A DNA stretch of 64,000 nucleotides from Candidatus Nitrotoga sp. HW29 (lineage in GTDB: Bacteria; Pseudomonadota; Gammaproteobacteria; Burkholderiales; Gallionellaceae): assembly GCF_924101635.2 (NCBI RefSeq), contig NZ_CAKMAA020000067.1, positions 1 to 64,000 on the forward strand. Direction: 5' to 3'. Under the pieces are notes generated by a model. The model did not search any database, was not told where the DNA came from, and saw only the letters and a program-made list of their open reading frames with translations. Positions 5,958 to 36,336 of this stretch are shown here, piece after piece. Made by a program: the position numbers and the translations under genes. The number at the start of each line of letters is the position of its first letter. Positions within the stretch are counted from its first letter, which is position 1.

Positions 5958-8900
5958 CTAGATCCTCCGCGCTGAACATAGCCGTAGGCTTCCTATTCCG
6001 AATAACACCATCAGCCCGGTCAGCACCAGCAGTGCCCATTCGGACAGCATCGGAATGGGTATTGCGCCGCTACCATCCACGACGCCAGGACTATCCACGA
6101 CGCCAGGACCACCCGGGTCGATAATAATGCCGTTGGCAGTCAGATCATCGTCGCCCACCCCACCATCAGTGATGTTGAAGATGACGGTGTTGCCAGTAAT
6201 TACTGCTGGAAGTTGGTACCAGTGTGGCGAGATATTTTCTATAGTGGGCCCGTATCTCCAATATACCGTGCCCGGCGGCAGAGTTTGTTGATAGATGATA
6301 GTAACCGTCAGGGTAGCACCCGTTGTGCAGCCGCTGGTGGTGAAATTGAATAGCCCATCCGGGAAGCTAATACCTGCTGGGGCCGTTCCGGTGGGTGGTG
6401 AGGCAGCATGGCCGGCGAGAGGGATATACTGGCTTATTGCGTAGCCGCAATTCGCGCCGCCGCCTGTGAAGCTGGCAGTAATGTTGCTACTGTCAGTGGC
6501 GGAGGAAGCTGTATAGCTGGTAGCGGCCCCTGGTGCCGCCAAGGTGGTAACGTTGAATGCACCGTTCACGCCGCCGATGGTGAGGGTTGCGGTGGACGTG
6601 GTGTTGTAGCTGCCGGAAGCAGTTAGTTGCACGGTGACTGTCTGGCCGTTGGTTACCGTACCGGCGGTTGAAACATAGGTTCCACCATCGATTGAGTAGG
6701 TTCCGCTCGCGATACTGATGGCACTGGCGCTGTTGATGCCAGAAACGGTAAAGGAATTGGAAGTTGCCACTGAGCTGAGTGCCGCGCCAGTCTGGGCGGT
6801 GAAGCTGAAGGAATCTGGAATGGAGTCAGTCGGCGCCGCCAAGGTGGTAACGTTGAATGCACCGTTCACGCCGCCGATGGTGAGGGTTGCGGTGGACGTG
6901 GTGTTGTAGCTGCCGGAAGCAGTTAGTTGCACGGTGACTGTCTGGCCGTTGGTTACCGTACCGGCGGTTGAAACATAGGTTCCACCATCGATTGAGTAGG
7001 TTCCGCTCGCGATACTGATGGCACTGGCGCTGTTGATGCCAGAAACGGTAAAGGAATTGGAAGTTGCCACTGAGCTGAGTGCCGCGCCAGTCTGGGCGGT
7101 GAAGCTGAAGGAATCTGGAATGGAGTCAGTCGGCGCCGCCAAGGTGGTAACGTTGAATGCACCGTTCACGCCGCCGATGGTGAGGGTTGCGGTGGACGTG
7201 GTGTTGTAGCTGCCGGAAGCAGTTAGTTGCACGGTGACTGTCTGGCCGTTGGTTACCGTACCGGCGGTTGAAACATAGGTTCCACCATCGATTGAGTAGG
7301 TTCCACCGACGATACTGATGGCACTGGCGCTGTTGATGCCAGAAACGGTAAAGGAATCGGAAGTCGCCACCGAGCTGAGTGCCGCGCCAGTCTGGGCGGT
7401 GAAGCTGAAAGGGTCGGGAATGTAGAGAAAATCTTCCAAGAACGCATTTTTACCTTGTGTAGAGTTGAATATCTGTTGTGCTTCATGAGCAAATCCGGAA
7501 ACAACTTCCATTTTATGCCGATCGTAGATACTGGCACCAAATTGCAATTCCAGATAATCATAGAAATTTTGCATACGAGAAAGACGGTAGGCTCCCTGTA
7601 GCTCTGATTCACAATTTTGATCCAAGCTTGGATCAACCGGGTCAGTGTCATTGCTACCAACCATATAGGTTACTTTAGCTTGTCCGTAGCGGTTGGTTAA
7701 TTCAGTTGCTCCGATCACATTCATATAATTGGTAACTGATAAGTTGTTCAAACCATATATATAATCATTATAGGTACTGCACGCTGTACTAGGGGCAGTA
7801 AACCCGCCGGTACCATCTGGCCGTATAGTTGAAAAATAAAGATAGGAAGACGGCGCACCTACTATATAGCGATTGCGACTATCGTTGCTAGCAGCAGCAT
7901 ATCGGTTAACTAATTGTCCGCCCGCACTAAATCCGGCGATTACCACGCTATCGAGATTTTGAAAAGTGGCATATAAACGATCGATAAGCTGATCGATTAC
8001 CGCGCAAGAAGATATTCTCCAAGGCAGGCTTGCGTCAGAGCGATTGCATCCTTTCCAACCATTACTACTCCAAAAAAGTTGGTTTATTTCCGGGTTATTA
8101 CCGGCTTCGGCGAATTGTGGTGCTAGAACTATAATTCCAGCAGTACCACTGACTGCATTCGCTGCGTAGTCAAAGTAATCAACGGCATTGTTGCTTGATC
8201 CATGTATGACAATAACTGCGCGGCGTATATTTGCATCGACGCTTTGATGCGGTTGGCTAGTGTATAGAGGCACCCATAATTCTGTGGTGCTACCTGGTTG
8301 GGTAATTGCAAACTGTTCAGAAAATTTAGTTGGACTGGCTCCAATTGGAGCGATCGCAATTGTTTGGGCAACAGACGTAACACCAGTGTTACTAAATGTG
8401 AAAATCCCTGGATCCGCGGTCGCTGAGTTTATACTTAACCTCATACTTCCGATTTGTCCGGAGCTAGTGGTTTCACCACTTCGTGTGTTGATCAGGTTAG
8501 AGTAGCCACTTGATCCAGATACAATGGTGCGGCTACTTGATGTATGTACTACCGGAATCCAAAGCGTATCTGCCGCGCCCCAGCTAGGTGAGAGTGATGG
8601 AGGATTTGCTGTGGTACCCCCCGGTGCGGGTTCAGTGGATATAACATAATTTCCTGTAGCAAGCCCGTCTACTGTACCGTACCAATTTTGAATTCGATAC
8701 ACTTGAGCCGCAGCTTGCTCAGTTGCGCTGGTAATAAAATTGACTGTTGTACTACCTTCGTTTCCGACTGCTACCTTTGCATATCCACCAGCGCGGAAAG
8801 CTGTTCCGGTTGTTGTATTCCATAACTCCTTCCAACCTACTGGTTTTGTAACGGTGGCATTACCATCGGTTGTAATAATAAGGAGCAGTAGATCACCGGC

Positions 8901-9062
8901 AGCAACCGTTGCCGGCATATTAACTTGATGATTTGTGGTATCTGTTGTGAATGTTGTTTCTGTGACTGAAGCGATATCGGGAGAAGCTGCCTCTACCAAG
9001 TTAATTGCCGATAGAAGCAATGCCAATACAGCACCAATCAACAGGAAACATTTCTTTTTCAT
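5958..9062 (-). CDS. Secreted alpha/beta-hydrolase (PHB-depolymerase/esterase-like) with three Ig-like repeats and IPTL-CTERM sorting tail
   Basis: 1,034 residues from the ATG at 9062; an in-frame start 198 bp upstream would bury the signal peptide (MKKKCFLLIGAVLALLLSA). Order: signal peptide; beta-rich N-domain (~25-240); alpha/beta hydrolase (~265-545) with oxyanion motif VIHGSSN, nucleophile elbow GFSAGG (Ser379), a candidate acid in VGSNDTDP and His526 in GFAHEAQ; three 100-residue repeats (~550-850); a choice-of-anchor-U-like domain ending GDDDLTANGIIIDPGGPG; and a C-terminal MLSEWALLVL segment, hydrophobic helix and RR basic tail, i.e. an IPTL-CTERM signal. Exosortase H lies upstream on the same strand, so it is probably its substrate. 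The esterase substrate is not known. Confidence 0.85.
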   Translation of the reverse strand: MKKKCFLLIGAVLALLLSAINLVEAASPDIASVTETTFTTDTTNHQVNMPATVAAGDLLLLIITTDGNATVTKPVGWKELWNTTTGTAFRAGGYAKVAVGNEGSTTVNFITSATEQAAAQVYRIQNWYGTVDGLATGNYVISTEPAPGGTTANPPSLSPSWGAADTLWIPVVHTSSSRTIVSGSSGYSNLINTRSGETTSSGQIGSMRLSINSATADPGIFTFSNTGVTSVAQTIAIAPIGASPTKFSEQFAITQPGSTTELWVPLYTSQPHQSVDANIRRAVIVIHGSSNNAVDYFDYAANAVSGTAGIIVLAPQFAEAGNNPEINQLFWSSNGWKGCNRSDASLPWRISSCAVIDQLIDRLYATFQNLDSVVIAGFSAGGQLVNRYAAASNDSRNRYIVGAPSSYLYFSTIRPDGTGGFTAPSTACSTYNDYIYGLNNLSVTNYMNVIGATELTNRYGQAKVTYMVGSNDTDPVDPSLDQNCESELQGAYRLSRMQNFYDYLELQFGASIYDRHKMEVVSGFAHEAQQIFNSTQGKNAFLEDFLYIPDPFSFTAQTGAALSSVATSDSFTVSGINSASAISIVGGTYSIDGGTYVSTAGTVTNGQTVTVQLTASGSYNTTSTATLTIGGVNGAFNVTTLAAPTDSIPDSFSFTAQTGAALSSVATSNSFTVSGINSASAISIASGTYSIDGGTYVSTAGTVTNGQTVTVQLTASGSYNTTSTATLTIGGVNGAFNVTTLAAPTDSIPDSFSFTAQTGAALSSVATSNSFTVSGINSASAISIASGTYSIDGGTYVSTAGTVTNGQTVTVQLTASGSYNTTSTATLTIGGVNGAFNVTTLAAPGAATSYTASSATDSSNITASFTGGGANCGYAISQYIPLAGHAASPPTGTAPAGISFPDGLFNFTTSGCTTGATLTVTIIYQQTLPPGTVYWRYGPTIENISPHWYQLPAVITGNTVIFNITDGGVGDDDLTANGIIIDPGGPGVVDSPGVVDGSGAIPIPMLSEWALLVLTGLMVLFGIGSLRLCSARRI
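6541..7420 (-). repeat. Three tandem 300-bp repeats in the IPTL-CTERM hydrolase gene
   Basis: Units start at 6541, 6841 and 7141. The first two, 6541-6840 and 6841-7140, read identically over all 300 bp. The third differs at a few sites (for example ccaccgacg for ccgctcgcg, and gaatcggaagtcgcc for gaattggaagttgcc) and loses similarity around 7410. Each encodes one 100-residue beta-sandwich-like domain starting PDSFSFTAQTGAALSS. Perfect identity including silent sites implies recent duplication or gene conversion. Confidence 0.95.
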
Positions 9063-9499
9063 TTTTAATGAGTTAGAAATGTCCGGGTTTCTAGCTCGAT
9101 TGATTGAGTAGTATTTTCTTAAAAAAGCCAAGCTCACAAACTGAGATTTGAAAACTGGAGCGTTGGGTATCGTTTTGGAAGTTTGTCCACGCACCGATAA
9201 AGCGTGTGCAATGGTTAGGTGTTCTATTAGCTGATAGAACATCAGTTTCTCTGCGTACATATGCGGACTCCTGACAAGTTAGGAACTTGGTCGGTTATGA
9301 AGCAATATGCAACCGTAAGGACGGTTGTGCGAAGGTGTTGATGCGTTATTTATCGAATCTCTGGACTCTGCTTACAATAGTATCGGTTAGAGATGGAATA
9401 AATTTAGTTGGACAGGGAAAAGGTACTGCTCGGAAATGCAGTTAGTCCCTGCGGAGGTTTGAGATAATCGGTTTTTCACAAAAACTGGAGGTGCAGGAG
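9063..9499. other. 437-bp leader/intergenic region between the IPTL-CTERM gene and the XrtH-associated gene
   Basis: No credible gene. It holds a 7-bp stem-loop (caaccgt-aagg-acggttg, 9310-9327) and one copy of the CAATAGTATCG motif (9375-9385) that recurs upstream of the exosortase gene. The length suggests the hydrolase has its own promoter. No terminator-like T-run was found on either strand. Confidence 0.45.
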
Positions 9500-27584: not shown

Positions 27585-28926
27585 GACTCTGAGGCCTTCC
27601 CTCAAAACTCCGTTGCATTTCAATAAAGTAGAGCGTACTGTTTGCTCCAAAACAGCACATGCATGGCAGGTTTATTGTCTCTTTCGTAGCGATCAAACTG
27701 CGAAGGAGAACCCGCCATGCATTCGATCACAATCTTACACCGCATTCTTTCCACAAGTTTCCCTGTAATTCATGCAAAACGCTTAGCCAGTTTACTGGTT
27801 GTTGTCGAGGCCGGTGGTAACGGGCAGTCGGCTGACGCTAAGCGACATGGGGCGCGGGCTGACCGGCTCGGTCGCCGTCCAGCACAATATCAAACGCATT
27901 GACCGGTTGCTCGGCAACGATTTGCTACACACTAAAATATCCAAGTTGTACGAGTCACTTGTCCGGCAGTGCTTGGACAGAATATCTATGCCGTTGATCA
28001 TCATCGACTGGTCGGATTTAACGCCCGATCGACAATGGCAATTGTTGCGTGCTTCGGTTGCTGTTGAAGGCCGTAGCATCACCCTGTATGAGCAGTTGTA
28101 CCCGTAATCGCAGGCAACATCACCGCGCGTGCATCAAGCGTTTTTTACGCAACTCGCCACCATGCTGCCGACAGGATGTATACCCATTCTGATTACCGAT
28201 GTCGGTTTTCGTGGCGCGTGGTTCAGATTGGTCAATCGCATGGGCTGGTATTGGATCGGTCGTATTCGTAACCGCGACATGGTCAGTCCGGCAGAGGTTG
28301 ACGTGGGCTGGCTGCAAAACACTCTATCCACTTGCCACAGCAAAAGCGAGGTCACTCGGTCAATTCAACTATGTACGAAATCATCCTGTGCCATGCCGTC
28401 TGTTGTTGATCAAACACGCACATCAAAAGCGCCACAAGAAGATTCGCTTGGGTAAGCTGGATCATTCGAGCCGTAGCCTGAAGAATGTCCGCGCGCAACG
28501 CGAACCATGTCTGTTGGCAGTCAGCCCAAAACTTGCTCAATTGAGCGCTCAAACTGTCGTAACCGTGTACGCCCAGCGGATGCAGATTGAGGAGTCATTC
28601 CGTGACTTGAAAAGCGAGCGTTTTGGATTGGGATTTTCTGCTAGCCGATCCACGCAGAAAAACCGATTGGGTGTGTTACTGCTGGTCGTATGTCTTGCCT
28701 CGTTCGTACTGCGCTTGATTGGCGAGGTGGGTAAAGCGTGACAGTTGGCGTTCAAATTTCAGAGCAACACGCGGCGTTCGCGCCCGGTTCTCTCGGTGAT
28801 TTCTTTGGCATTGCAGCTTATACAACATGGTATGGCGGCATTTCCGCTACGTGAGCTTGGTGCAGCCCTTGAACGGTTGCGTTATGATCATCCTGCGCTG
28901 CAACTTTGAGGGGAGACCTCAGAGTC
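27585..28926 (+). mobile_element. Decayed IS4-family insertion sequence
   Basis: About 1.34 kb bounded by inverted ends: gactctgaggcct (27585) on the left and its near reverse complement ending in ctcagagtc (28926) on the right; both then run into CCCTCAAA-type sequence on the inner side. The enclosed transposase gene is disrupted. No exact target-site duplication was found immediately outside these ends. Beyond them, atcaat/attgat words give a further weak symmetry. Confidence 0.8.
27717..28909 (+). pseudogene. IS4-family transposase, broken by frameshifts and stops
   Basis: The product starts MHSITILHRILSTSFPVIHA in one frame, continues as SDMGRGLTGSVAVQHNIKRI in a second (from about 27800), meets an in-frame TAA at 28105-28107, resumes (IPILITDVGFRGAWFRLVNR), shifts to a third frame near 28340 and meets TGA at 28739-28741 before ending at 28909. 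DDE residues are visible: Asp in IIIDWSDL, Asp in ITDVGFR, and the IS4 Y-x2-R-x3-E-x6-K signature in YAQRMQIEESFRDLK. With two frameshifts and two stops it cannot make active transposase. Confidence 0.88.
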
Positions 28927-29136: not shown

Positions 29137-30318
29137 TCAACCTACCAACATAGCCGTCTTCGGATCATAGACCACTTCGGTAATCGACCCATCCCGAATG
29201 CGTTGAACCGCTTCGTCAATTACATGGAGCGGTACCAAGAACCATTCCTTCGGTTTCACCGGATTTCCGAAGCGGTCTTCGATGGTCAAGTCGAGCTGTG
29301 CTGCACCAAATAAGCGGTGGAAGATGTTTTCCAGCCTGATGCGGTTCATGTTGTGGAGTTTGTAGGTGGCGACCACCCCCACGTCGGCCAACAGATAGGT
29401 GGCATCTTTTTCTGCACCTGCGATGCGGGTCTCTATCTTGCCGCCGGTCACGCCGATCTTGTGGATCAGCTCACGGTGTTCGGCCACGAATGGATGGTTG
29501 GACAGGCTGCGCAGCACATAGATGATTCCGGTTTCGATATCGTCTGGCTCTGGCGCATCACCAAACAGCGGCCCCATGCTAGTACCGGTCAACATGCGGG
29601 CGTTTTCGTCTTTATAGAGTGCACGTTGTAGTGAGCGCATCAACAGATTGCTTTCGGTGCCGTTGGAATAGACCACGCGCAGGCGCGCATCGGGTTCATT
29701 GTTGCCCGTACGGAAAATGTCACCCTGCTCGGCCACATAAACCAATAAACCGCCCAAGACAAAAAAATTGCCCACCTTAAAGTTGGAATCACGCCCAAAC
29801 TGGCGGGACTGGCGAACGCCAGCCTTTAGCTCCCGCTCCACCTGCTCAAACAGCGGTTGGAACTTGTCAAAATCCGCACACGGCGTACGGTCAGCAATTT
29901 CCTCTGCTGCACGCTTTTCAAAGCTGGAGCGCACATGGCGCAGTACGGTGATGTCATCCCGGTTGGCGGGTTGATCGCCAATACCCAACTCGGCCAGCAA
30001 AGCGTCTTCGTCCAACTCACCCACATCCGTCTGAGCCGCTGCCGCACCAGACAATAAACTTGGGCTATCCAGCCCGGCCAGCAGGGTTTGCACTTCCGGT
30101 AACTTGCGTAGCTGATCCAGGCGCACGGCATACAGGCGCTCAAAGATGTCACGGCCTTCACCATGCAACGGGGCGCGCCCATTGGCCTGATGGAAGCGCA
30201 GGATGTCCTCGAAGCCAGCGATGATGCGTTCTTCGCGCGGGGTTCGGCTGGTGACCTTGAGCGGGGCGACTTCTACACCCAGCGCATTCAGCAGTTCGTC
30301 ATCGTCCATTTCAGCCAT
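29137..30318 (-). CDS. GIY-YIG nuclease of the T5orf172/MUG113 type, in a restriction-like operon
   Basis: 393 residues from the ATG at 30318, which overlaps the helicase stop by 8 bp; the in-frame extension to 30576 lies wholly inside the helicase gene. Residues ~264-370 form the nuclease: GIIYVLR (264-270), HKIGVTG (286-292, the YIG position), Arg298, Glu330 in RLENIFHRLF and EWF (358-360), matching the T5orf172 pattern. The N-terminal 250 residues are of unknown fold and contain two similar acidic motifs, DDDELLNALGVE (4-15) and DEDALLAELGIGD (103-115). As the last gene after the helicase and methylase it is the likely DNA-cutting subunit. Activity is inference. Confidence 0.85.
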   Translation of the reverse strand: MAEMDDDELLNALGVEVAPLKVTSRTPREERIIAGFEDILRFHQANGRAPLHGEGRDIFERLYAVRLDQLRKLPEVQTLLAGLDSPSLLSGAAAAQTDVGELDEDALLAELGIGDQPANRDDITVLRHVRSSFEKRAAEEIADRTPCADFDKFQPLFEQVERELKAGVRQSRQFGRDSNFKVGNFFVLGGLLVYVAEQGDIFRTGNNEPDARLRVVYSNGTESNLLMRSLQRALYKDENARMLTGTSMGPLFGDAPEPDDIETGIIYVLRSLSNHPFVAEHRELIHKIGVTGGKIETRIAGAEKDATYLLADVGVVATYKLHNMNRIRLENIFHRLFGAAQLDLTIEDRFGNPVKPKEWFLVPLHVIDEAVQRIRDGSITEVVYDPKTAMLVG

Positions 30319-32440
30319 TGCCGGGCTCTCTTTGCGTCTGTGTCGCTTTTGCTTGTGCGCGGTAGCGCGCCAGCGCAGCCACACCTTCAGCCATGCGTTT
30401 TTCCCATGCGTCGGCGGAGTTAATATCCGGCAGGCGGCCACGCTCGTTCTTGAACTGCAAGGCGCGTTTTGCCAGCTCACGGGCTTCGTCTTCGGGGATA
30501 GTGACCTTCTTGGCGGCAATGCTGGCCTGTACCTGGCGCAGCGACTTTTCATCCATCGCTTTTGCCAGCACCGCATAAGCGGCGTCGAACGGGTTGATGC
30601 GGTCGATCAGGTCAACGTCCAGGTCGCGCACATTAACGAACTTACGTACCCCATCCAGCAAAGCCGTATTGCCTTGTATCGCGTCATCGTCCGCACCACC
30701 ACCGTTCGCATCGGCCTGAGCCAAGGCCAATTTGGCCTGCTGAGTGATGTTCATCGCAGCGATAGCGTGCTGACGGATGGCCTCCTGGTCAGTATCGCTC
30801 AAATCCGGGTAACGTTCGCGCACGATCTTGCCCATGCGCAGCTGGGTCAATTCTTCGGGCAGCGTGTTATCCTTGTCGAATAGGCCGCGTTCCAGCGCGG
30901 TCTTGTCTTGCAAGAAGCTGGTGACGACTTCGTTTAAATCTTCTTTGCAGATGCGCGTAGCTTCCGGGCTTTGTGGTGTTACCAACCCGTTGATCTCCAC
31001 GTGAATCTGGCCGGTGTCTTTGTTCACCCCAATGTTATGGCCGCCGTCCTTGTAGCCCTCCGCGCCATAATCGAAGCCGTCTTTTGGGCCAATGTTTTTT
31101 GGCGTGAACTCATAGCGCGGTGCCAGCACTTGCTCCATCAGCAGGCTGGCGGAAATGGCCTTGAGCATGTCATTCACCGCTTCGGCTACGGCGGCTCGAT
31201 CGGCTGCGGGTTCGGCAATCAAATTAGTAAAACGCGACCGTTCCTTGCCTTCGGCATCACGGGTGGCGCGGCCAATAATCTGCACAATTTCGGTCAGACT
31301 GCTGCGGTAGCCGATAGTCAGCGCGTGTTCACACCAGATCCAGTCAAAGCCTTCCTTCGCCATGCCCAGCGCGATGATGATGTCCACATGGTCGCGATTA
31401 TTTTTCTGCGCCGGATCTTTCAACGCAGTGAGCACACGGGAACGCCGTGCCGCATCGCTGTCGTCTACCAAATCCGCTATTTTCAGGGTACGGCCGGCTT
31501 TGGTTTGAATCTGGTGGAAACCGGTGGCTGGGTCAACGCCTTTCCATTCGCCCAAGCCGTGCATGATTTCATTCACCTCGCGCTCTTTGTCTTTAAGGCT
31601 TTCGCGTGCATTTACATTGGGAATATGGATGATGGTTTTCAATGCCAGGTTCAACACTTTAGTGACGGCATCAACGTAAGGGCCGGTGTAGAAGAAGTAG
31701 CCAATGTCCAGCGATTTGAGCCATTGGTAGCCATTAAGCTGCTCGTAGTAGGTATAAGTGACCGTCTCGAACTTAGCCTCATCCGCCGGCCCCAACACCG
31801 CTTCGCTGTCACCACGGAAGTAAGATCCCGTCATCGCCACCAGATGCACCTTATCGCGGGTGATAAACGCGCCCAACTGACTGCCTAGCACGTTGCCCGG
31901 ATTGCTGGACACGTGATGAAATTCGTCGATGGCAATCAGGCGGTTGTCGAATGCTGCTATGCCTAGCTCTTCTACCGCAAAGCGGAAAGTTGCATGGGTA
32001 CAAACTAAAATCTTATCGGTACTTTCCAAAAACTTGCGCACCGCGTCCATCTTGGATTTGGCCATGCGTGGCTCATCCACGTCGGGGGCATTGCACAGGT
32101 TCCACTGCGGCGCGACCTGCCAGTCCCAATCGAATCCGTACTGGCTTAGTGGTTCATCGGCGAAGCTGCTGCCGATGGACCGCTCCGGCACTACGATAAT
32201 GGCCTGCTGCAAGCCCTGGTTGTTGAGCTTGTCCAGCACGATGAACATCAGCGCGCGGGATTTACCCGATGCCGGTGGCGACTTGATCAGCAAATACTGT
32301 TCGCCGCGCTTGGCATAGGCGCGCTCCTGCATAGCGCGCATCCCCAGCATGTTGGCCTTGCTGGAAGCGCCGGTGCGCGCCGTGGTGATGGAGACTGATG
32401 GCACAGTGTAGGCATTGGTGGGATTGGCCGGGTTAGTCAC
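30311..32440 (-). CDS. SF2 DEAD/DEAH-box helicase of a restriction-like system
   Basis: 709 residues from a GTG at 32440 whose bases overlap the preceding small gene's TGA (GTGA). Superfamily 2 motifs: Walker A SPPASGKS (54-61), DEFH (172-175), motif III-like AMTGS (202-206), GYRSSLTEIVQIIGRATRD with motif VI arginines (377-395). An insertion of over 100 residues separates the two RecA-like domains. Residues 430-709 lack recognisable motifs. No nuclease motif is seen here; a GIY-YIG nuclease is encoded by the overlapping next gene and a DNA methyltransferase upstream. It resembles the translocase subunit of type I/III restriction enzymes. Confidence 0.88.
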   Translation of the reverse strand: MTNPANPTNAYTVPSVSITTARTGASSKANMLGMRAMQERAYAKRGEQYLLIKSPPASGKSRALMFIVLDKLNNQGLQQAIIVVPERSIGSSFADEPLSQYGFDWDWQVAPQWNLCNAPDVDEPRMAKSKMDAVRKFLESTDKILVCTHATFRFAVEELGIAAFDNRLIAIDEFHHVSSNPGNVLGSQLGAFITRDKVHLVAMTGSYFRGDSEAVLGPADEAKFETVTYTYYEQLNGYQWLKSLDIGYFFYTGPYVDAVTKVLNLALKTIIHIPNVNARESLKDKEREVNEIMHGLGEWKGVDPATGFHQIQTKAGRTLKIADLVDDSDAARRSRVLTALKDPAQKNNRDHVDIIIALGMAKEGFDWIWCEHALTIGYRSSLTEIVQIIGRATRDAEGKERSRFTNLIAEPAADRAAVAEAVNDMLKAISASLLMEQVLAPRYEFTPKNIGPKDGFDYGAEGYKDGGHNIGVNKDTGQIHVEINGLVTPQSPEATRICKEDLNEVVTSFLQDKTALERGLFDKDNTLPEELTQLRMGKIVRERYPDLSDTDQEAIRQHAIAAMNITQQAKLALAQADANGGGADDDAIQGNTALLDGVRKFVNVRDLDVDLIDRINPFDAAYAVLAKAMDEKSLRQVQASIAAKKVTIPEDEARELAKRALQFKNERGRLPDINSADAWEKRMAEGVAALARYRAQAKATQTQREPGNG

Positions 32441-32622
32441 TGCGTATCGTCCTCCGTGAATGTGTCGATGCCCCCCAGTTCACGCTCGATCTGCTCGATG
32501 CTGGGCAGGCTGGTGATGCCGAAACAATTGTGCAGCGGCTGCTGCACAAATTCCCTATCCGGCAAGGTCAATGGGTAATCGTCCAACAAGCTGTTGGACA
32601 ATGCCAACGTCCAAATGCGCAT
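32437..32622 (-). CDS. Small unknown protein coupled to the helicase
   Basis: 61 residues, start 6 bp after the vapC stop, stop overlapping the helicase GTG. The sequence (SLPSIEQIERELGGIDTFTE near the end) is acidic and mostly helical in character. I recognise no family. The tight spacing supports translation, while the lack of a clear ribosome site argues for caution. It could be a real small subunit, a coupling peptide, or the remnant left when vapBC entered between the methylase and helicase genes. Confidence 0.45.
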   Translation of the reverse strand: MRIWTLALSNSLLDDYPLTLPDREFVQQPLHNCFGITSLPSIEQIERELGGIDTFTEDDTQ

Positions 32623-32628
32623 TGTTTT

Positions 32629-33036
32629 TCATGTGGCCTCATGCCAGTTCAGCCATTGCAAGCCAGGCACACGGGAGAATTCGCGTACATTGCGCGTCAC
32701 CAGCGTGGCCTGATAACGCAATGCCGTGGCGGCGATCAACGTATCGTGCGGGCCGATAGGCGTGCCTGCGGCCTCAAGCTCGGCCCGGATGCGGGCGGCA
32801 TGAGCTGCGCAGTCACTGTCAAATGGCAATCTCTGCATGGGCTGCAACAATTGCATCAGCGCTGCCAGCCTGGGCTTGGCGGCTTCCTGTGGCAGACGTA
32901 GAAGACCATAACGCAATTCATATTCCACGATGGCCGACACGCCGACTTCTGCGGGCGCCAGCGCCTGGACACGCGGCACGATTTGCAGGTCGCCGCGAAG
33001 GTAGTAGCTGATGATGTTGCTGTCGAGGATCAGCAC
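32629..33036 (-). CDS. vapC: VapC-type PIN-domain toxin
   Basis: 135 residues. PIN-domain acidic residues are in place: Asp5 in MLILDSNIISYYLRGD, Glu in IVEYELRYGLLRLP, Asp in IGPHDTLIAATAL, followed by LVTRNVREFSRV. VapC toxins are Mg2+-dependent RNases acting on tRNA or rRNA. It starts 9 bp after vapB. The pair lies between the methylase and helicase genes on the same strand. Confidence 0.92.
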   Translation of the reverse strand: MLILDSNIISYYLRGDLQIVPRVQALAPAEVGVSAIVEYELRYGLLRLPQEAAKPRLAALMQLLQPMQRLPFDSDCAAHAARIRAELEAAGTPIGPHDTLIAATALRYQATLVTRNVREFSRVPGLQWLNWHEAT

Positions 33037-33045
33037 GACCGACCC

Positions 33046-33279
33046 TTAAAACCCGATGCGCGGTGCATCGGCCGGCATTCCACTCGACCCGTCAGCCTCA
33101 AGCGAAGGGAAATCCGGGAACTTTCCGGCCAGTTCCAGACAGGCCTTGGGCCATTCCTGATGAGCATGCTTGCGGATGATGTCCGCCACCCAACGGCTTT
33201 TTGATACGCCATTGGCCTGCGCGGCTTGATCCACCAGTGCCTGCGTGGCATCATCAAGATATAGCGTGATTTGTGACAT
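33046..33279 (-). CDS. vapB: VapB-type antitoxin (ribbon-helix-helix)
   Basis: 77 residues. The N-terminus SQITLYLDDATQALVDQAAQ with VSKSRWVADIIRKHA is a ribbon-helix-helix DNA-binding domain; the acidic proline-rich C-terminus (FPDFPSLEADGSSGMPADAP) is the usual toxin-wrapping tail. It is directly followed by vapC and preceded by a perfect palindrome at 33309-33330. Confidence 0.88.
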   Translation of the reverse strand: MSQITLYLDDATQALVDQAAQANGVSKSRWVADIIRKHAHQEWPKACLELAGKFPDFPSLEADGSSGMPADAPRIGF

Positions 33280-33308
33280 GGCGATAACCCCTTTAATATG
33301 AGTTGAGC

Positions 33309-33330
33309 AAGTATATTTCCAATTATACTT
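33309..33330. promoter_or_regulatory. Palindromic operator upstream of vapB
   Basis: aagtata-tttccaat-tatactt: exact 7-bp arms, 30 bp before the vapB ATG. VapB/VapC complexes usually repress their own promoter through such sites, so this probably gives vapBC an autonomous promoter inside the larger operon. Confidence 0.65.
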
Positions 33331-33384
33331 AGTGATGCAAATTCGTCAAACCGGATAATGACGGGGCTAATGGATTTTCCAGTT

Positions 33385-36177
33385 TCATATTACCCTCGTT
33401 GCTTTCACAACTGGCTTGGCCTTGGCCGCCGCCGTCATCTTCGTATAAAGCTCAAACAGTTTTTCCAACCGTTCGGTGTCGTTTTTGAAACGGCGGCCGA
33501 TGTAAATGCGCTCCAGCACTTCGTCGTTGCGCTCGTGGGCGTGGCGCAGGTTCTCCGGCATGTTGTTCGGGTCTTACAGGTCGGCAATGGTGGCGGGAAA
33601 GTGCGCTTCGCGAGCGAGCAGGATGTTTTCGGCGCAGACGGTCAGGTCGGCCTTGTTCTGCTCGGTGAGCAGCGGCACGGGGAAAGTGTTCCAGCCGAGG
33701 GTGTTGGAGTAGCGGAAATCGGTTTTCAGTTTGCCGCAGACCGTGGCAATCCAGACCAGATGCAGGCGGGAAGCAATGAGCGCCATGTTCCACAGGGGGG
33801 CGTCGTAGAGGGCGAAGGCTAGATTTGTAACAGTTGAGTTTTCGTCAACGACTCCCGCAGGTAAATAATCGCGTGACTCTGATGAAACACAAGGCATAAC
33901 AATCGTCTGACGCTCCCCAATATTCATTTCCCGCATTTGATGCGCCCGCGCAGCCATTTCATTGGCTCCGCTGTCTCGGCTCGCCAGCCTCATTGCTCGC
34001 ACGCCGTCAACACGTTGGTGAATCGGTGCAATGCGCATCGCTTCTTCAAGATGGGCATCCTCAATCCACAGGCAATAGCGTTCCAGACCACGAATAAATT
34101 CTGCCGAGCCGTAGATACGGCGAATAAAACGGGCATGTTGCTCTGGTGTTAGGCTAAGTGCATCGACTTCATCACCGGCGAGTAGCAAATGGCCACCATC
34201 ATATGGCATGTTGCCACGTAACATTTCTGTCAACTCACCCAAAGGGCGCGATGCCTTTTCCACAATCACATTGGCTCCGGGCACCAAGTAGGCATTGATG
34301 TGTTCGACTTCTTTGACGAGTGAGCTACCGTCATCACTTATTGAGAAAATCTTGCGCAGCTTGCCTATTTGGTTGCTGATGCCCACGATTGCCACCGTCA
34401 CACCCGCATTATGACTGGCCAAATTAGCCCATTTGAACGAGGTGTGCGCAAACGCGATCTTGTTTCCAGTGCCAAATACCAGCGGCCATAGAATGGCCAC
34501 TTGCTGTCCTTGGCAAATGGAGTTGGTGGACACGAACGCCGCAGCAGCATTGGTCTTGGTGCCGTAATCGGCGGCCTTCATAAACCAGCCCGCCACATAG
34601 TCCAGTGACTTCCAGTTCTTGGTGCGGTTGGCGAAGATGGCTTGCAAATCCGCCTTCTGTTCGTCCTTCTGCCAAGTGGAACCCAAATACGGTGGATTGC
34701 CACAGATATACGTCTCACCCCCTTCGTTCTCAAAGTCGATTTCCGACTGATCCAGCGGCGTACCGAATAAATCATCGGCAAGCATTTTTACGCCCGTTCC
34801 CGTGGGAGGGCAGACACTCAGCCAATTCAGCCGCAGTGCATTACCGCAAACAATCCAGTTCTGCGCATCCAGCGGCAAAAACTCCGCCAGTGCGTCCTTC
34901 TGTCCGCGATACAGTACATCGCACTGAAACTCGGCAATGATGAGCGCCAGACGCGCAATTTCTGCCGGGAAGTCGCGCAGCTCGATGCCCCGGAAGTTGG
35001 TCAGTGGTATCTCGCTGCCTAAATGTGGCTCGCCCCGGCGGCGGTTGATTTCCGCTTCGATCTCGCGCATTTGTTTGTAGGCAATGACCAGGAAGTTGCC
35101 AGAGCCACAGGCCGGATCGAACACACGGATGCGTGCCATGCGCTTGCGCAGGTTTAGCAGTTTGATTTTGTTATCGTTCGACTCATTCAACTGCGCACGC
35201 AGCTCATCTAGGAACAAGGGGTTCAATACCTTCAGGATATTGGGCACACTGGTGTAGTGCATGCCCAATGCGCCGCGCTCTTCGTCGTCGGCCACGGCCT
35301 GGATCATGCTGCCGAAGATGTCGGGGTTGATTTGTTGCCAGTTCAAATTTCCGGCATGGATTAAGTAGGTGCGCGCCATGCGGGTGAAACGCGGCACGCC
35401 AGTTGCGTCGGAGAACAGGCCGCCGTTGACGTATGGAAATTTATCGGCCCAGCTAGGCAAACGTGGCACAGCGTTAGAACGCTCGTCAGGATTAGTCTTG
35501 ATGTTCATGGCGCGAAAGATGCTTTCCATCACTTCATGTGTGTTGGAGCCATCACGCTCGCTCATCTGCTCGATGGTATGGGTGAACAGGCCATCGCCGT
35601 TGAAAATATCGGTGTCTTCGGCAAATAAGCAGAACACGAGCCGCGCCATAAAGTGGTTCATGTCGGCGCGGCGCTCGTCTGTGGCCCAGTCCGGGTTTTC
35701 ACGCAGCAGTTCGACGTAGAGTTTGTTCAGGCGCCCGGTGGCGCGTACATCGACGGGGTTGTCCTTGATCTCCTTGATGGTGGAGATGCCTGCGAGTGGC
35801 AGGAAGAAGCCGAAATGGTTGGGGAAGTCCCGGTAGGTGCAGGCGACGGTTTCGCCACTAGTCAGTTCTTCAGCTTCAAGGGTTTGCCCATCGGTGGCGA
35901 GGATAAATTTGGCACGGGCTTTGATGGTGGCCAGACTCGCACGCAATGCCTTGAGGGAAGCGCTCACAGTGCCACTTTCGCACACGGCGAGATGGATGTT
36001 GTTGCGTTGGAGCACGCCACCGGGCACATCTGAAGCATTGTTGTTGCCAGTACGCAGGCGCTTGAGTGCCGTGTCCTTATTGCCGAAAGCGGCCAGGAAG
36101 GCGAACGGGAACTCTGCCGCGTCGAAGGGCTGAAGGGCCAGGTCTGATATGGCTTCTTCGATTTCTATTGCATTCAT
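33385..36177 (-). pseudogene. MmeI-like class I DNA (N6-adenine) methyltransferase with one premature stop near its C-terminus
   Basis: The open frame gives 867 residues, stopping at TAA 33574-33576. The same frame continues for 62 codons to TGA at 33385-33387 with clear family sequence: DPNNMPENLRHAHERND, then LERIYIGRRFKND and TERLEKLFELYTKMT. One base change (probably TAT/TAC to TAA in DLYDP) therefore splits a 930-codon gene. Motifs: GMHYTS (305-310), SAM-binding FDPACGSGNF (353-362), catalytic NPPY (494-497), then a target-recognition-like region. The N-terminal ~130 residues occupy the MmeI nuclease position but show no PD-ExK pair, so cleavage would need another protein. The truncated enzyme may retain activity, since catalytic motifs are intact. 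Confidence 0.85.
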
Positions 36178-36225: not shown

Positions 36226-36336
36226 TCAGTGACTGACGCGGCACTGCGGGACTCTATTGTAAATGGTTGCCCGTGAGATCTCGTAGTGTTTCGCGATCTG
36301 GCTAACAGGGATGGCTGTACCTACATCAGCTGGCCA
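36226..36336 (-). pseudogene. Remnant of a serine recombinase (resolvase/invertase) C-terminal helix-turn-helix
   Basis: In one minus-strand frame the segment reads PADVGTAIPVSQIAKHYEIS followed by RATIYNRVPQC and a stop at 36226-36228. This is the HTH of Hin/Tn3-resolvase-type recombinases. There is no start and no catalytic serine domain, so it is a fragment. It lies just upstream of the methylase gene and marks old mobile DNA at the edge of the block. Confidence 0.7.

Follow-up and report, generated by a model that had tools for sequence, protein, structure and literature searches.

A DnmA-YeeB-YeeC-type operon in Candidatus Nitrotoga sp. HW29, probably a split restriction system with interchangeable cargo between methylase and helicase

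We have analyzed a stretch of 64,000 nucleotides (nt) from Candidatus Nitrotoga sp. HW29, called the window in what follows, which corresponds to contig C67 (NZ_CAKMAA020000067.1) of a 3.0-Mb genome. This work deals with an operon on its minus strand, which contains, in this order, genes for a methylase, a VapB-like antitoxin, a VapC toxin, a small protein (orf61), a helicase and a nuclease, as deduced from the list of open reading frames (ORFs) and from Pfam. A first-pass annotation had described these six same-strand genes, all of which lie where it had placed them. The features are as follows, with lengths in amino acids (aa):

33574..36177, minus strand: MmeI/DnmA-type gamma-class N6-adenine methyltransferase, 867 aa, with MmeI_N, helicase spacer, Mtase and target recognition domain (TRD); nuclease residues absent
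33385..33561, minus strand: MmeI_C domain stub, 58 aa from its ATG, in the same frame after the methylase stop
32441..33384, minus strand: cargo slot from the methylase end to the helicase start, defined by comparison with relatives
33322..33349, minus strand: sigma-70-like promoter TTGACG-16-TATAAT before vapB, 11/12 consensus matches
33046..33279, minus strand: vapB-like antitoxin, 77 aa; ribbon-helix-helix matches all sub-threshold
32629..33036, minus strand: VapC PIN-domain toxin, 135 aa; PIN
32437..32622, minus strand: orf61, a remnant whose end resembles the C-terminal tail of DUF1016/YhcG nuclease genes
30311..32440, minus strand: YeeB-like superfamily 2 (SF2) helicase/translocase, 709 aa; DEAD; motifs PPASGKS, DEFHH, MTGSY and QIIGRATR
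29137..30318, minus strand: YeeC-like T5orf172/GIY-YIG nuclease, 393 aa; T5orf172/MUG113

The two gene overlaps that had been noticed are real: a GTGA is shared by the end of orf61 (32437) and the GTG start of the helicase (32440), and 8 nt are shared by the end of the helicase (30311) and the ATG of the nuclease (30318). A separate SF2 helicase and a T5orf172-type GIY-YIG nuclease are also borne out by Pfam. The helicase matches DEAD, with ResIII slightly below the cut-off, and its four motifs presumably have the usual helicase roles. The nuclease, which matches T5orf172/MUG113, has invariant Y267, G289, R298 and E330, which we take to be catalytic, and its second motif is HKIG instead of YIG. 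A longer nuclease frame, starting at 30576, is an artefact: that stretch contains a stop in 16 of 19 relatives, and the match starts later in the other three.

The methylase matches MmeI_N, MmeI_hel, MmeI_Mtase and MmeI_TRD in Pfam, and its S-adenosylmethionine (FDPACGSGNF) and NPPY motifs are intact, as the first-pass annotation had stated. MmeI cuts DNA with D70, E80 and K82, according to an excerpt of PMC4833311. According to a profile built from nine N-terminal domains, which matches MmeI (E = 3.2e-05), the window methylase has G54, A64 and C66 in place of these residues, with moderate alignment confidence in that region. Since G54, A64 and C66 stand at the catalytic positions, the claim that there are no PD-ExK residues in this region holds. 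MmeI_N is conserved at least as well as Mtase (mean identity 85% vs 78% in 13 close relatives). Such conservation in spite of the lost nuclease residues suggests that this presumably dead domain has another role, for example docking.

The methylase reading frame ends at an in-frame TAA (33574-33576), beyond which the same frame encodes MmeI_C. This stop, absent from the first-pass annotation, is not shared: the site is open in all 17 relatives checked, a set which excludes locus L046, with a methylase frameshift at another site. The stop appears to be recent, or else to be an assembly error, because the MmeI_C stub is 95% identical to that of the relative L027 across 44 residues. The window's copy of the operon is probably impaired, since its methylase has no C-terminal domain, and may be inactive. 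Another MmeI_Mtase match, a weak one (33 bits), is found at a different place in the genome, within an open frame of 1392 aa (G000:C73:39295-39543, L002).

A system of this kind has been described in Bacillus subtilis, the dnmA-yeeB-yeeC cluster (PMC7261158 and PMC9973331, cited throughout from excerpts). DnmA is an MmeI-like protein with no nuclease motif, which forms N6-methyladenine (m6A) at GACGAG; dnmA is followed by a helicase gene and then by one for a T5orf172/GIY-YIG protein, and a neighbourhood analysis places these families at downstream positions 1 and 2. For a Type I-like mechanism of the trio, those excerpts refer to Morgan et al. 2009 (PMC7261158), and for its membership of defence islands to Makarova et al. 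2011. The window agrees with this description: an MmeI-type m6A methylase lacking the PD-(D/E)XK motif is followed, in the same order and on the same strand, by an SF2 helicase and a T5orf172/GIY-YIG nuclease. The B. subtilis genome, used as a control, has matches to the MmeI_Mtase model as well as to T5orf172. The window differs in its truncated methylase and in having VapBC and a DUF1016 remnant between methylase and helicase, while yeeB and yeeC come directly after dnmA in B. subtilis, with toxin-antitoxin genes described as near, not between. The first-pass annotation knew of no named system with this set of genes; this does not stand, as the trio matches DnmA-YeeB-YeeC in these excerpts, an outcome which it had itself named as decisive against its claim. 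We consider it probable that the locus is a split restriction operon of the DnmA-YeeB-YeeC type, in which VapBC is interchangeable cargo.

Other known systems fit less well. Type IIL MmeI (PDB 5hr4) has the same order of MmeI_N, spacer, gamma-Mtase, TRD and C-terminal part (E = 1.2e-123), but the window methylase is without D70, E80 and K82, and helicase and nuclease are separate proteins, so that the single chain with nuclease and methylase of Type IIL is not found here. Type I restriction-modification (RM) systems have an HsdR motor fused to a PD-(D/E)XK nuclease and a separate HsdS; the window operon has no HsdS, its TRD is within the methylase and its GIY-YIG cutter is separate. Neither HsdR nor HsdS had a match among the 7 window proteins scanned. 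The DISARM and BREX cores are DrmA/B/C or BrxB/C/Z, which also have no match among these 7 proteins, all from the operon; the methylase is weakly DrmMI/PglX-like. In PADLOC-DB 2.0.0, the defence classifier that we have used, the methylase appears as a type IIG restriction enzyme-methyltransferase, the helicase has one weak match (PbeA, 19 bits) and the nuclease has none. Only the methylase is properly matched, so this library misses the system.

In order to ascertain how general the association is, we have collected loci encoding relatives of the helicase, denoted here by L numbers. The helicase is present in 22 of 199 related genomes, including the window's own. A larger collection consists of 80 genome loci, the nearest of at least 558 helicase-encoding stretches in the GTDB collection, and of 43 IMG/VR stretches encoding a helicase relative. 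The methylase is found in all 68 genome loci with at least 4 kb upstream, and the nuclease in all 75 with at least 1.5 kb downstream. L106 and L108 have no methylase match, but their upstream sequence is 400 nt or less. Among IMG/VR loci with room, the methylase is found in 27 of 27 and the nuclease in 39 of 41. An MmeI-family methylase without nuclease residues is thus linked to helicase and nuclease in all nearest relatives with room, and the co-occurrence proposed by the first-pass annotation as a check is found elsewhere. The record titles of the 80 genome loci include Pseudomonadota, Bacillota, Lentisphaeria, Geobacter, Spartobacteria and Bacteroidetes; in three loci from Bacillota (L078, L082 and L086) the trio is present with a helicase identity of about 70%. 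The helicase is also present on 264 of 72,556 plasmid records, and 152 of these contain 80% or more of the query; among 50,697 phage records, 3 have a match, which is weak or partial. Of two plasmid regions inspected, one, from an Acetobacter plasmid, has adjacent genes annotated as methylase, helicase and nuclease, and the other, from the circular Polaromonas plasmid pE10SP1 (L170), has genes for a DUF1016-type PDDEXK nuclease, a helicase and a GIY-YIG protein.

The two internal junctions of the trio behave differently. Between helicase and nuclease, the 8-nt overlap is conserved in 71 of 77 genome loci, and a single gap exceeds 100 nt (L070). Between methylase and helicase, 78 genome loci have gaps of less than 150 nt in 34 cases, 150-299 nt in 2 and at least 300 nt in 42; this is 44 loci with 150 nt or more, against the single long gap in the other junction. 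The corresponding figures for 33 IMG/VR loci are 23, 1 and 9. Examples of an intact trio whose slot is nearly empty are L054 (Uliginosibacterium aquaticum) and L057 (Ideonella oryzae). Foreign modules enter almost only the methylase/helicase junction. A first set of 20 regions from relatives gives a similar picture: L032 and L040 end at a contig edge before the methylase, and the other 18 plus the window have cargo at this place in 13 cases and none in 6.

We have examined the 105 ORFs in 66 filled slots (44 genome, 10 IMG/VR and 12 from the first set), which belong to more than 20 gene families, including toxin-antitoxin, DUF1016, RhuM, Fic and AbiJ proteins. Family names are taken from one representative each, and counts refer to loci, not to events, because some loci repeat: L127 and L128, probably with L061, have identical layouts. 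The largest family is DUF1016/YhcG (PDC-S02), found in 16 loci when tail remnants are included, followed by AlbA_2 with HATPase and RhuM (PDC-S05) with 7 each, PLD-like proteins (5, sub-threshold) and unnamed families of 143 aa (5), 277 aa (4) and 256 aa (3). VapBC, T5orf172-like proteins (sub-threshold) and ParE/RelE-type toxins with a DUF6290-like partner (partner sub-threshold) are found in 3 loci each, and GmrSD_N, Fic, YafQ and BrnT in 2 each. PDDEXK_4 (PDC-S26), DUF559, PIN, DUF3800, AbiJ_NTD4 (PDC-S32), HEPN and CoiA-like proteins appear in single loci. A scan of ten cargo proteins against NCBIfam found no match. The representatives from L119 (143 aa) and L038 (277 aa) have no match in Pfam, NCBIfam or PADLOC, and those from L079 (256 aa), L109 (281 aa), L053 and L074 have none in Pfam or NCBIfam. 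A cargo protein of L099 (5910-7001) gives a sub-threshold T5orf172 match, so that a second GIY-YIG-like protein may be encoded within the slot of some operons.

Cargo differs even among the closest neighbours of the window helicase: the ParE/RelE type in L027 (93% identity), VapBC in L030 (92%), AlbA_2 in L028 (90%) and an empty slot in L031 (90%). On a helicase tree with 94 rows, the filled or empty state requires at least 23 changes; 500 shuffles give a mean of 30.1 (standard deviation 2.5), and one of them reaches 23. The state therefore changes easily, though not at random. Counting remnants, there are 14 DUF1016 carriers, for which 12 changes are required on this tree. It is a quick tree, with 36 of 91 inner branches open, and the gap values of the early relatives were derived from region coordinates and entered by hand. 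It leaves out the IMG/VR loci, L044, whose helicase frame is broken, L106 and L108, which have no methylase end, and L028 and L031, which share their contigs with L047 and L055. In one locus, L044 (G006), 107 nt from the 3' end of the methylase gene recur with 95% identity on the far side of a HEPN-type cargo gene, which suggests homologous recombination through the methylase end.

The VapBC module of the window is one example of such cargo. VapC has a PIN match of 75 bits, with VapC models under their cut-offs; the 77-aa ORF upstream, in the place expected for the antitoxin, has homologues adjoining VapC in L030 and L064. The promoter-like site before vapB (33349-33322) has 11 of 12 consensus positions; the other 5 sites have 9, and 4.8 sites are expected in shuffled sequences at 9 of 12. 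This site fits an independent cassette. The last 25 residues or so of orf61 match the DUF1016/YhcG C-terminal tail. VapBC stands before this tail in the window and in L030, and the tail is gone in L064. As cargo differs or is absent among the slots of relatives, VapBC and orf61 are rejected as core parts; VapBC, which the first-pass annotation had named with the operon, is variable cargo and not part of the system.

Three pieces of sequence upstream or downstream of the operon may be mentioned. A DDE transposase fragment (DDE_Tnp_1, 34.6 bits; 28199-28741, plus strand), apparently an incomplete insertion sequence, lies directly downstream. At about 36250-36310 (minus strand), upstream of the methylase, the translation of a short frame resembles the helix-turn-helix end of a serine resolvase, and in L043 a complete resolvase (1795-2334) adjoins the upstream side of the methylase at the equivalent place. 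A recombinase as conserved mover was considered and rejected: two resolvase queries match none of 77 loci, genomic and viral, that have 2.5 kb or more of upstream sequence.

The methylase has one very variable part. In a close set of 13 relatives (78 pairs), mean identities are 88% for the helicase, 78% for the nuclease, 85% for MmeI_N, 78% for Mtase, 84% for MmeI_C and 51% (34-88) for the TRD, by far the most variable part of the methylase; the drop in identity is located at residues 500-780, approximately. A striking case is the pair L035 and L039, with TRD identity of 34% and helicase identity of 86%. A helicase and a nuclease which tracked changes of site themselves should vary too, so the variable TRD fits a methylase which would supply the specificity for both marking and cutting. 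Excerpts of the B. subtilis papers report that a dnmA deletion, with yeeB and yeeC present, leaves transformation unaffected and causes no growth defect. This viability fits cutting directed by the methylase; an inactive nuclease would explain it equally well.

In the mechanism that we propose, the methylase would read one site, for marking and restriction alike, and at unmethylated sites it would load or license the helicase. The helicase would then translocate along DNA and the GIY-YIG protein would cut, with the dead, conserved MmeI_N as a possible docking surface. VapBC and other cargo would be independent defence or maintenance modules. This scheme resembles Type I or Type ISP systems, although the nuclease is of another kind and recognition resides in a domain of the methylase itself. 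The first-pass annotation had also proposed a split system in which the methylase protects, the helicase translocates and the GIY-YIG protein cuts. Its grouping is real and the roles are plausible; it is not new, as the Type I-like idea is in print. Protection by the methylase is likewise plausible, and this protein may in addition direct cutting, given the TRD variability and the viable dnmA deletion reported in the excerpts.

Several observations weigh against a functional restriction operon of this type. The genome loci counted are the 80 closest to the query, no nuclease match is found in two IMG/VR loci with room (L164 and L169), and Polaromonas pE10SP1 has no methylase annotated upstream, in an incomplete gene table of a circular record. 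The window trio is a DnmA-YeeB-YeeC set as judged by description, domains and order, which is how it was matched to B. subtilis YeeB and YeeC. TRD identity correlates with helicase identity (Spearman 0.73, close set), so fast divergence and swapping are not separated.

The remaining objections lead to a different explanation, which we consider unlikely: the cluster could be a relic, as the authors of the B. subtilis work call theirs, with the methylase as an orphan epigenetic regulator and the helicase and nuclease as decaying passengers. In the excerpts of PMC7261158 and PMC9973331, deletions of dnmA, yeeB and yeeC had no effect on three phages, and the transformation test was also negative. 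Broken genes point in the same direction. Otherwise conserved helicases have stop codons in L029 (codon 47) and L037 (codon 414), both with an open methylase, possibly cases in which restriction was lost and the methylase kept; the L044 helicase (7275-9397) is frameshifted, the L046 methylase is broken and that of the window truncated. On the other hand, helicase and nuclease remain together in the nearest relatives, helicase identity exceeds methylase-domain identity in close relatives, and a scan listing 102 genome and IMG/VR loci finds an internal helicase stop in just one (L083). In addition, an excerpt of PMC9973331 reports that Vibrio crassostreae dnmA and yeeB deletions are more sensitive to some phage subclades.

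Another explanation is a classical Type II-like split, in which the nuclease would find its target by a DNA feature of its own and the methylase would have a purely protective role. The central part of the nuclease (residues 60-240, approximately) does vary more than the nuclease domain. However, its identity hardly tracks that of the TRD (Spearman 0.24 in the close set; 0.62 in the full 17, where kinship dominates), too weak for the tight match that we had looked for. A free nuclease of matching specificity should also forbid the dnmA deletion described in the B. subtilis excerpts, unless inactive. We consider this explanation very improbable. Still slightly less credible is a single machine of six genes, in which VapBC would be the trigger of cell death after a failure of restriction: the window, L030 and L064 have VapBC within the operon, and other cargo includes toxin-antitoxin and abortive-infection families, but VapBC occupies just 3 of the 66 filled slots, the gap is shorter than 150 nt in 34 of 78 genome loci, vapB has its own promoter-like site and VapBC stands before a DUF1016 remnant.

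In summary, a split restriction operon of the DnmA-YeeB-YeeC type remains our preferred reading, and its value is mainly corrective, as the trio gains its published identity. Going by the excerpts cited, the trio is already published, although weakly characterised, and a Type I-like mechanism has already been suggested. The type IIG label in PADLOC-DB 2.0.0 is given to a methylase whose nuclease residues are gone, and its partners are missed. Embedded defence genes in RM operons are also known: an excerpt of PMC12255303 describes DarTG2 between hsdS and hsdR of a Type I system, which resembles our case in having a methylase-specificity module, a DNA motor and foreign modules inserted before the motor gene. 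The slot in DnmA-YeeB-YeeC-type operons, with its strain-specific toxin or defence genes, looks like the fresh, under-described part. We have found no account of it in a literature search which did not cover the embedding preprint, the Vibrio original or the 2009 MmeI-family paper; according to an excerpt of PMC9973331, the locus may in some bacteria include one more member, from an "uncharacterized protein family".

The variable TRD beside a conserved motor provides computational support for Type I-like cutting steered by the methylase. The slot is a practical hunting ground, with many known defence and toxin families (by raw occurrence) and several unclassified ones. Its cargo representatives match PDC-S02, S05, S26 and S32, as in guilt-by-embedding, with the difference that the host operon is here of the DnmA-YeeB-YeeC type; these families are said to be candidates from the Payne et al. 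2024 preprint. It is conceivable, if on balance doubtful, that the methylase/helicase junction is a dedicated exchange socket which repeatedly gains and loses second-line immune modules while helicase and nuclease remain fixed together. The unclassified cargo (families of L119, L038, L079 and L109) would then be new anti-phage genes, some of which might be set free by inhibition or loss of the restriction core.

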